Positions 45,072 through 47,144 of a DNA stretch of 64,000 nucleotides are shown here, one piece after another. The position numbers were made by a program, and so were the translations under genes. Source of the DNA: Rahnella victoriana (GTDB lineage: Bacteria; Pseudomonadota; Gammaproteobacteria; Enterobacterales; Enterobacteriaceae); the NCBI RefSeq assembly GCF_004330295.1, contig NZ_SJOJ01000004.1:124001-188000 (forward strand). Reading direction: 5' to 3'. Below the pieces are notes generated by a model. That model searched no databases. It had not been told where the DNA came from and saw nothing but the letters and a program-made list of their open reading frames with translations. Positions within the stretch are counted from its first letter, which is position 1, and every line of letters begins with the position of its first letter.

Positions 45072-45749
45072 CTACATTCTCAGCGCGCCACTGTAGAGTA
45101 CGGCACCGGTCGGTTGTCCGGTCGGCGACCCCCCGCGCGGCTCAAGGCTTATCGCCAGCGTATAGCCCGGATCAGGCATCTTCGCGGCCAGCGTCAGTTG
45201 CGTCGGTTGTTGGGTGTTCAGCAAGCCGAGCGAGCGGGGTTTGCCGCCCGGCGGAATGGCCCACAGTTCGAGGCTGCGGTCCGTGGCAATACTCTGCGCA
45301 TTCAGCGGCGTCAGCATCAGGCTGCGGGTGCTTTTATCGACACTGACCACCCACTGGCCGCTTTGCGCACCGGCGTTGCTGGCCAGAATCGCCACCGGTG
45401 TCGGTGCTTCTGGCTGCACCAGCAGGCGCGGGATCAGCAGCAATGCGGCAAGCCCGGCGGCCAGCGCCCAGCCAACATAACCGCGCACCGGTCTTTTAGA
45501 TGCCGGCAACAGGCGCACAGGCTGGAGCGCGAGGCTATGCTGAATACGCTTCCACACCGACGCGGGGGGGATCACCGGCACAATCTGATTATCCAGTTGG
45601 GTGAAGGCTTCCTGCCAGCGGGCAACTTCCGCCGCCAGTTCAGGATCCGCCTGCATTTTTTGCTCGAACTGTCTCCGGGCTGCGCCGCGCAACGTGCCGA
45701 GCGCATATTCAGCCGCGAGGGCAGCATGATAATGGCTTCTGCTTTTCAT
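45072..45749 (-). CDS. RskA-type anti-sigma factor
   Basis: Membrane anti-sigma factor (225 aa). The N-terminal cytoplasmic part (HAALAAEYALGTLRGAARRQ, residues about 8-27) is a zinc-less anti-sigma helix region. One transmembrane helix follows at about residues 91-110 (YVGWALAAGLAALLLIPRLL). The periplasmic RskA domain (SLELWAIPPGGKPRSLGLL) closes the protein. It would hold the adjacent ECF sigma factor inactive at the membrane until a periplasmic signal, through proteolysis in known members. Start overlaps the sigma gene stop by four bases. Confidence 0.85.
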   Translation of the reverse strand: MKSRSHYHAALAAEYALGTLRGAARRQFEQKMQADPELAAEVARWQEAFTQLDNQIVPVIPPASVWKRIQHSLALQPVRLLPASKRPVRGYVGWALAAGLAALLLIPRLLVQPEAPTPVAILASNAGAQSGQWVVSVDKSTRSLMLTPLNAQSIATDRSLELWAIPPGGKPRSLGLLNTQQPTQLTLAAKMPDPGYTLAISLEPRGGSPTGQPTGAVLYSGALRM

Positions 45750-46327
45750 AGTCCGACGCAGCTCTTTAAGTGATCCAGGGCGCGACGGATCCAGCTTTTG
45801 ATCGTCCCCAGAGGTTGTTGCAGATGGGATGACACCTCGCCGTGCGACAGGCCCTGATAATAGGCAAGGATCAGGCTTTGTCGTTGTTCGGCGGGAAGGT
45901 GCGCGAGGCAGGCGGCGAGAATTTTGGCGTCGCTGTCCTGTTGCAGCCGTTGCAAGGGTTCATCGTTGTCGCTGGCATCGCTGTCGCCCATTGTGTCATC
46001 CAGTTCATCTAACTGGTTGTCGCTCCCGCGCATCCAGTCGATAGCGCGGTTGCGGACAATGTGCGTGAGCCAGGTCATCGGGGAACTGAGCGCCGGATTA
46101 TAAGAGGCGGCGCGGTTCCACGCGGTGATATAGCTGTCGTGTAACACTTCTTCTGCCCAGGCATGTCGCCGCAACATGCGTAATGCGACGGCGAACAGCC
46201 GGGGGGACGTCAGACGATATAACTGCTCAAATGCCTGACGATCGCCAACGGCCATGGCGCTCATCAGTTCGCGCTGGATTTCCGGCGCTTTCTCTGGTGT
46301 TGGCTTAACTAAAAAATTGTCATGCAT
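45746..46327 (-). CDS. ECF sigma factor (SigK-like)
   Basis: Extracytoplasmic-function sigma-70 family factor (193 aa). Region 2 is visible as RLFAVALRMLRRHAWAEEVL then HDSYITAWNRAASYNP and WLTHIVRNRAIDWMRG. Region 4 is LPAEQRQSLILAYYQGLSHG then GTIKSWIRRALDHLK. It directs RNA polymerase to a small regulon and is paired with the RskA-type anti-sigma factor encoded next to it (four-base overlap). It lies 65 bases after the fasciclin gene on the same strand, so the three are probably co-transcribed. Absent from this site in E. coli. Confidence 0.9.
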   Translation of the reverse strand: MHDNFLVKPTPEKAPEIQRELMSAMAVGDRQAFEQLYRLTSPRLFAVALRMLRRHAWAEEVLHDSYITAWNRAASYNPALSSPMTWLTHIVRNRAIDWMRGSDNQLDELDDTMGDSDASDNDEPLQRLQQDSDAKILAACLAHLPAEQRQSLILAYYQGLSHGEVSSHLQQPLGTIKSWIRRALDHLKSCVGL

Positions 46328-46392
46328 TCGCCCGTCCTGACTTACTGAGGTGCTGTTTCATAAGAGAAATCATGCCCTCAGTATAGTCGGTA

Positions 46393-46956
46393 TTATTTTG
46401 GCATCAGGACGGTATCAATGACGTCGATCACACCGTTCTTCTGCTGGACGTCATAAGTGCTGATATTGGCGATATTTCCTTTGCCATCTTTGAGCTGAAT
46501 ATTGTGCGGACCGTTATTCATGATCCACAGTGGCTGGCCGTTAACGGTTTTCAGTTCCGCCGTGCCGTTGCCTTTTTTCAGCAGTTTTTCCAGATCTTTC
46601 ATTTCATATTTACCCGCCACCACGTGATAGGTAAGGATGCTGGTCAGCGTGGCTTTGTTTTCCGGTTTCACCAGATTGTCGACAGTCCCGGCTGGCAATT
46701 TAGCGAAAGCGGCGTTGGTCGGCGCAAACACAGTGAACGGACCTTTGCCCTGCAACGTATCCACCAGACCGGCGGCTTTGACTGCTGCCACCAGCGTGGT
46801 GTGGTCTTTTGAGTTCAGGGCATTTTCGACGATATTTTTGGAAGGATACATTTCAGCGCCACCGACCATGGTGGTGCTTTGAGACATCATTGCAGCCATT
46901 GACGCGGTGCTCAGCAGAAGAGATGCACAGATAGCGGTACGGAGTAATGTTTTCAT
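46393..46956 (-). CDS. Secreted fasciclin (FAS1) domain protein
   Basis: Periplasmic or surface protein (187 aa): signal peptide (MKTLLRTAICASLLLSTASMA) and one FAS1 domain spanning about residues 38-187. H1 is visible as GPFTVFAPTNAAFAKLP, the YH motif as LTYHVVAGKY, and H2 as NGVIDVIDTVLMPK. FAS1 domains usually mediate adhesion or ligand binding. Grouping with an ECF sigma factor and RskA protein parallels mycobacterial MPT70/MPT83 with SigK/RskA. Here it is the first gene of the three, and it is likely the sigma factor's main output. Confidence 0.9.
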   Translation of the reverse strand: MKTLLRTAICASLLLSTASMAAMMSQSTTMVGGAEMYPSKNIVENALNSKDHTTLVAAVKAAGLVDTLQGKGPFTVFAPTNAAFAKLPAGTVDNLVKPENKATLTSILTYHVVAGKYEMKDLEKLLKKGNGTAELKTVNGQPLWIMNNGPHNIQLKDGKGNIANISTYDVQQKNGVIDVIDTVLMPK

Positions 46957-47006
46957 GATGGTGTCCTGCGTAAGTTAAGTAGGTAAGGTCTTGCCTCACA
47001 TCTATA

Positions 47007-47035
47007 CATACGAATGACCCCCTGCGTTTGGATGC
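47007..47035 (-). promoter_or_regulatory. Possible ECF-type promoter ahead of the fasciclin gene
   Basis: On the minus strand GCATCC (47030-47035), 17 bases, then CGTATG (47007-47012). This has the form of an ECF promoter with an ATCC-like -35 and a CGT-type -10. It is about 50 bases upstream of the fasciclin ATG. It is a hypothesis only: the -35 also forms part of a small CCTGC/GCAGG hairpin. Confidence 0.35.
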
Positions 47036-47095: not shown

Positions 47096-47126
47096 AAAAA
47101 AGCCACGTTCTGATCACGTGGCTTTT
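47096..47126 (-). terminator. Rho-independent terminator after rhtA
   Basis: Stem AAAAAGCCACGT / ACGTGGCTTTTT with a seven-base loop, 18 bases past the rhtA stop. T-runs exist on both strands. Confidence 0.93.
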
Positions 47127-47144
47127 TCGCAAAAAGGGGCGGGA

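Follow-up and report, generated by a model that had tools for sequence, protein, structure and literature searches.

The window considered here is a stretch of 64,000 nucleotides from Rahnella victoriana (NCBI RefSeq assembly GCF_004330295.1, contig NZ_SJOJ01000004.1, positions 124,001 to 188,000), and it contains a cassette of three adjacent genes on its (-) strand. The first gene, which is the predicted target of the other two (46393..46956, 187 aa), encodes a protein with a fasciclin domain (FAS1; PF02469 Fasciclin, E 5.4e-34). It is followed by a sigK-type sigma factor gene (45746..46327, 193 aa; Sigma70_r2 PF04542, E 5.3e-14; Sigma70_r4_2 PF08281, E 2.4e-14) and by an rskA-type anti-sigma factor gene (45072..45749, 225 aa; RskA_C PF10099, E 7.7e-20). 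FAS1 and sigK are separated by a gap of 65 bases (46328-46392), and sigK and rskA overlap by 4 bases (45746-45749). When the open reading frames were rechecked, these positions agreed exactly with a preliminary description of this DNA, which had reported three same-strand genes with this gap and this overlap.

The gene order in the window is ompX, rhtA, FAS1, sigK, rskA, dps, where the names dps (Ferritin), rhtA (EamA) and ompX were assigned from position and family. As had been claimed at the outset, the cassette breaks an E. coli-like order: the E. coli DSM 103246 record reads ompX-rhtA-dps-glnH, with rhtA and dps adjacent and no gene listed between them. A blastn search with short words, whose reach extends to about 65-70% DNA identity, returned no match to the cassette in 5,426 E. 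coli genomes. The window also holds a DksA/TraR-family zinc-finger gene (NF008243, 43766-44101) between dps and glnH, and the E. coli DSM 103246 record lists no gene of this family at that place. After rhtA, and 5' of the FAS1 promoter, lies a terminator-like hairpin with 13 pairs and a T run (47096..47128, (-) strand). This hairpin, which is weak taken alone (4 terminator-like sites in the region vs 3.0 in shuffles), suggests that the cassette may form a transcription unit separate from rhtA.

Across 392 genomes of the family, we found the sigma gene in 50 and FAS1 in 47, with all 47 falling among the 50 (Fisher p 1e-57, ignoring relatedness). The three genomes with the sigma gene only (G472, G576 and G646) carry remote versions (39-40% identity), and the cassette counts do not include them. 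For a comparison of neighbourhoods, 60 loci were fetched, 49 from sigma-bearing genomes of the family (the window's own excluded) and 11 from other families, the latter drawn from a search with a match in 59 of 394 genomes; the Y. enterocolitica locus itself is absent from this set. In 46 of the 49 family loci (46/60 of all those fetched), the sigma gene is immediately preceded by FAS1 on its own strand, which argues that the arrangement is not due to chance. RskA follows in 45 of these 46 FAS1 cassettes (45 alignable), none being found in L091, so that the linkage, put forward earlier as something to check across relatives, is indeed conserved. The L096 contig stops within rskA or close to it. 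The 11 loci from other families and the three remote loci have sigma and RskA genes and no FAS1. For the three cassette proteins, pairwise distances correlate with an r of 0.88-0.94 (46 rows).

The window FAS1 is the sole PF02469 match at E <= 0.001 in its own genome (5.31 Mb assembly), and among the three cassette proteins it is much the best conserved, with a mean column identity of 80% vs 60% and 51% for the sigma and anti-sigma proteins (21 rows each). Judged by eye from the sequence, it starts with a signal peptide with a probable cut after ...STASMA. An AlphaFold model has a mean pLDDT of 73 and a pTM of 0.70, with low confidence over the first 32 residues. MPT83 is lipid-anchored (PMC7509140), whereas the mature part of FAS1 has no cysteine to carry such an anchor, either in the window protein or in the 20 relatives listed. 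A link to copper or hypochlorite through N-terminal methionines was also considered: Met30, 36 and 119 are present in 46/46 rows, but mature FAS1 has only 5-8 Met per 163-170 residues (21 rows listed).

Among solved structures, the best matches of FAS1 were human TGFBI (7asg, E 9.6e-39) and, for bacteria, 1w7d (E 1.2e-38). By sequence, the window FAS1 is nearer to 1w7d than to MPT70 (E 1.2e-17). The 1w7d entry carries the name Beta-Ig-H3/fasciclin, and we take it to be Fdp of Rhodobacter sphaeroides. Fdp, which is RSP1409 of R. sphaeroides, shares this name in UniProt and is described as a secreted protein whose knock-out lowers adherence 100-fold (PMC7561615), and higher levels of RSP_1409 have been listed for photo-oxidative stress (PMC7074977). 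Fdp differs, however, in being subject to negative regulation by Prr, and the passages on it mention no sigK-rskA neighbour (PMC7561615).

The possibility that the window FAS1 is phage cargo was discarded, as it matched no phage record at E 1e-10 and no PHROG. A second, solitary FAS1, 72% identical to the window protein, lies beside L241 1363-2562 (genomes G597 and G719, genus g223; L242 has the same ORF layout). It adjoins a phage tail-fibre gene and a gene for a phage 'moron' membrane protein (tested in L241 only), has no SigK box or TATACT box, and in L241 and L242 is perhaps carried as prophage cargo. Two lone FAS1 copies away from sigK, in two genomes, have neither the promoter box nor the TATACT box described below. 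In Yersinia thracica (L125), FAS1 is split into two partial frames, so that either the gene is broken or the assembly is at fault; other species have intact copies.

For the sigma factor, the best PDB match was M. tuberculosis SigK (4nqw_A, E 1.2e-21), and the closest named relatives come from Rahnella species (90-96% identity over the sigma factor). Its score against the NCBIfam SigK model NF007228 was 141 bits, below the cut-off of 226; we therefore file it as SigK-type only, not within the NCBIfam SigK subfamily, and count the shortfall as a point against a SigK/RskA circuit. In the alignment, Cys140 and Cys190 of the protein correspond to the cysteines of M. tuberculosis SigK (4nqw) that PMC7509140 numbers 133 and 183. 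In the other FAS1 cassettes, Cys140 is present in 46/46 and Cys190 in 45/46, and both are kept in 14/14 FAS1-less relatives. According to PMC7509140, the cysteines of M. tuberculosis SigK influence the interaction with RskA when oxidised, and the pair occurs in 94% of ECF18 and 56% of ECF19, the group in which the Y. enterocolitica sigma relative is placed. In one locus, L091 (5983-6591; genus g6, that of a Pantoea ananatis genome), the C-terminus of the sigma factor, including the second cysteine, is replaced and no rskA was found, which looks like the result of a deletion; this locus still has the promoter box and a hairpin.

The anti-sigma protein scored 72 bits for RskA_C (PF10099; Pfam cut-off 29.4) and reached the cut-off of the NCBIfam anti-sigma model NF052375 (106.6 vs 100). 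It has one hydrophobic segment at about residues 90-112, judged by eye. When its N-terminal domain was compared with solved anti-sigma domains in PDB searches, only 3hug_B was returned, at E values of 0.048 and 0.068; this result is not significant and was likewise counted against the circuit reading. For Y. enterocolitica RskA, the published inhibition of the adjacent sigma factor, and its activation by truncated RskA, were reported as activity, not as binding (PMC7509140).

Upstream of FAS1 we identified a predicted SigK promoter, GCATCC-N17-CGTATGTA (47005..47035, (-) strand), which begins 79 bases before the FAS1 start codon. The corresponding box, GCATCC-N16/17-CGTA, is found 5' of FAS1 in 47/47 cassettes (the window plus 46 loci), at a distance of 73-93 bases from the start except in L080 (154) and in L086 (123, owing to a late choice of start). 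The box is kept while the intervening spacer sequence changes, and the pattern has one further match elsewhere in the same loci, in 1,130,904 strand-bases. Together with the response of the homologous Yersinia promoter to SigK/RskA (PMC7509140), these counts uphold the earlier reading of FAS1 as a target gene placed first in its operon. In 7/14 FAS1-less relatives, and in 2/14 remoter loci (no shuffled control), sigK itself is directly preceded by a similar box (GCATCC..CGT), which suggests that FAS1 was inserted between a self-activating promoter, of an autoregulatory type, and sigK.

The 65-base gap between FAS1 and sigK is itself organised. From the FAS1 stop codon onwards, it contains a TATACT box just past the stop (46380..46385), a hairpin (46347..46379) and the sigK ribosome-binding site. 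In the window, this inner hairpin is part of a two-tier fold (46336..46390), the outer stem of which extends over two bases of the sigK ribosome-binding site (AGGA); all these features lie on the (-) strand. Folding of the whole window gap gave -24.9 kcal/mol with a z of -5.1. Over 47 gaps the mean z was -3.8, and 41/47 were below -2, the six above it being L056, L064, L077, L079, L080 and L081. In 43/47 gaps, TATACT is found no more than 28 bases from the FAS1 stop, and TATAAT takes that place in L060 and L061; in two longer gaps the box lies farther down, as TATAAT at 64 bases (L080) and as TATACT at 98 bases (L056). L056, from one Rahnella genome, has about 90 extra bases between the FAS1 stop and TATACT, with box and hairpin kept.

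The loci are related, so the following box and stem counts are not independent: CTATACT occurs in 41/47 gaps, the expectation from these loci being 0.004 per gap; in 45/47 a stem of at least 7 pairs begins no more than 8 bases from the box, vs 21 in the shuffled expectation, and the 5' arms are of 29 different kinds; and an outer stem of at least 3 pairs, joining bases before the box to bases after the hairpin, is found in 37 of 44 distinct gaps vs 25 expected. Of the 44 loci for which a start was found (L057-L059 had none by the rule applied), 24 have a ribosome-binding-site-like base within this outer stem. In an RNAalifold analysis of 9 of the 47 sequences, hand-chosen for good alignment, CCU was paired with AGG of the sigK site and two compensatory columns were seen in the inner stem. 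RNAalifold predicted no pair at all on an alignment of 37 sequences, from which 10 of the 47 had been left out as near copies or for box placement. An arm-swap test favoured a gap's own arms, with a bias in that the arms had been picked by their own fold. In the Pantoea-genus gaps L077 and L081, and in that of a Pantoea plasmid, the box is kept with little or no hairpin. No intrinsic terminator (a GC-rich stem followed by a T run) was called in the window gap. In Yersinia L063-L065, a T run after the outer stem makes the gap look like an intrinsic terminator, unlike that of Rahnella; L080 also has a T run after its stem. A search of 46328-46392 against Rfam gave no match up to E 5, and an Rfam family was therefore dismissed as the identity of the gap element.

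Turning to the number of promoters served, FAS1 is probably the sole target of SigK in Rahnella. A strict form of the box, GCATCCR-N15/16-CGTATRTA, occurs exactly once per genome in 14/14 Rahnella genomes, the window's own included, with 0 for the backward control, so that the circuit looks single-target there. The wider GCATCC-N16/17-CGTA has 15 matches in the window's own genome. The 14 others lie inside open frames of 108-1008 codons; the two shortest of these (108 and 138 codons) are not surely genes, and one of these two lies 170 bases before a 452-aa ORF. SigK of M. tuberculosis differs in that it controls a regulon of eleven genes (PMC7509140), and the sigma factor studied here could instead be a broader regulator, with FAS1 as one target of several and the other promoters missed by our patterns. 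In line with this, a looser pattern, GCATCCR-N15/16-CGTAT, returned 181 sites in 46 family genomes (more than one per genome) vs 44 for the backward control. However, the extra loose sites examined, 20 in number and hand-picked, many because they recur, fall within stop-to-stop frames of 170-408 codons, those of L221, L222 and L228 at the frame's edge. Given this and the single strict box in each Rahnella genome, we regard a broader regulator as unlikely.

The origin of the cassette had at first been left as either an acquisition or a local retention. Of the 46 cassettes, 15 are flanked by rhtA and dps, and the remaining 31 are spread over a number of other neighbourhoods. When 67 named sigma factors were placed in a tree, those encoded beside dps or rhtA, 24 in number, grouped as one clade (support 95/88, 1 change), with members from Rahnella, Ewingella, Rouxiella and Yersinia as well as a record labelled Serratia sp. 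M24T3 and an uncultured one. Since all 24 named dps-rhtA cassettes belong to this clade, the cassette appears to have been retained at this site and not freshly acquired; retention thus gained support, and a recent acquisition at dps-rhtA was rejected. One might still argue for a recent horizontal arrival in Rahnella from the 31 cassettes in other neighbourhoods, from the lack of a match in E. coli, and from the two separate Serratia versions, since the sigma factors of Serratia silvae and S. marcescens/nevei fall apart in the tree. The argument could be extended to plasmids, as a sigma match is present in 72 plasmid records, of which 52 are from Pantoea, and the one Pantoea megaplasmid that was opened carries FAS1, sigma and anti-sigma genes with the promoter box as well as the TATACT box. 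Against such an arrival stand the single clade, in which Rahnella, Ewingella, Rouxiella and Yersinia share the same site, and the strict box in all 14 Rahnella genomes searched, which together make it very improbable. We favour the view that the cassette is an old, portable unit that would have been kept vertically at dps-rhtA.

For the gap, we tentatively propose a new conserved regulatory RNA element, comprising an inner hairpin whose sequence varies, an internal loop containing a near-invariant UAUACU and an outer stem that pairs with the sigK ribosome-binding site. Such an element would hold back sigK translation (in Yersinia also transcription) until FAS1 is translated, and would thereby keep a private sigma factor with a single target from running away via its own positive loop. 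Its main rival is a weak promoter: TATACT could be the -10 of a housekeeping promoter for sigK-rskA, the hairpin being incidental or a 5' stabiliser. The presence of TATACT or TATAAT within 140 bases of the FAS1 stop in 47/47 gaps, and within 28 bases in 45, would fit this, as would the persistence of the box where the hairpin is weak (L077, L079, L081 and a Pantoea plasmid). Yet there is no -35 signal at 16-18 bases, where the mean score was -0.17 vs -0.22 at control positions (with -35 weights taken from general knowledge), the distance from FAS1 to the box varies, and no consensus promoter was called at TATACT in the window. Moreover, the hairpin arm begins directly after the box, and a transcript starting 5-9 bases past TATACT would lose part of the 5' arm. 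For lack of a -35 signal, a sigma-70 promoter was set aside as the leading reading of TATACT and stays on as a rival, one that we hold to be rather doubtful. An RNA element that would limit sigK output is favoured over it.

The SigK/RskA system of M. tuberculosis, with MPT70 and MPT83, resembles the window in that its SigK is the best solved match, both cysteines align and the targets are FAS1 proteins. In M. tuberculosis, mpt70 and mpt83 are located apart from sigK. Nearer at hand, an mpt83-sigK-rskA cassette with a SigK site has been described in Yersinia and the Y. enterocolitica version tested (Veyrier et al. 2020, PMC7509140), the authors using the name mpt83 for the Yersinia gene too. 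Y. enterocolitica SigK and RskA were reported to control the mpt83 promoter in both E. coli and Y. enterocolitica, and a change of SigK Cys181 to abolish activation in E. coli (PMC7509140). The window has the same make-up, with FAS1, sigK and rskA adjacent on one strand and a candidate SigK-type site before FAS1. The enterobacterial FAS1/SigK/RskA combination is thus already published, and the Rahnella cassette is a further member. The Y. enterocolitica cassette is like that of Rahnella in its three genes, their order, the SigK site before FAS1, the SigK cysteines and the RskA-type anti-sigma factor, and in other Yersinia species the cassette occupies the same dps-rhtA site. It differs in belonging to another genus and in having been put to experimental test. 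With the box conserved in 47/47 cassettes and the Yersinia promoter test of PMC7509140, the analogy to SigK, RskA and fasciclin drawn in the preliminary description holds. The main text of PMC7509140 makes no mention of a hairpin, stem-loop, terminator, attenuat- or intergenic, and a search of open-licence papers for further literature on enterobacterial fasciclin cassettes gave nothing among the matches listed. As far as the open-licence literature reaches, the single-target evidence, the one-clade history at dps-rhtA and the gap element are new here.

Taken together, these data make it very likely that the cassette is an envelope stress circuit of the SigK/RskA type, complete in itself and probably serving a single target. 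Judging by its family, RskA would span the inner membrane and hold SigK in the cytoplasm. A periplasmic or redox signal would change RskA, and SigK would then be released, or else actively switched on by the altered RskA as published for Yersinia; the SigK cysteines, whose need is published for Yersinia and which are kept in Rahnella, would be required. SigK-RNA polymerase would start at the GCATCC-N16/17-CGTA box observed before FAS1, and the FAS1 protein would be made and exported to the periplasm or surface, where it would probably help to protect the envelope or to mediate adhesion, like Fdp in Rhodobacter. Read-through into sigK-rskA would close a positive loop, and the box and hairpin in the gap would keep sigK output below that of FAS1, with either read-through or sigK translation held back.

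ECF sigma factors often serve regulons, and one that seemingly serves a single adjacent gene would provide a clean model of the path from signal to output. Rahnella would be a host in which the signal for SigK, RskA and fasciclin could be screened with one reporter, and the conservation of box and hairpin suggests a further layer of control in a cassette that is already in laboratory use.
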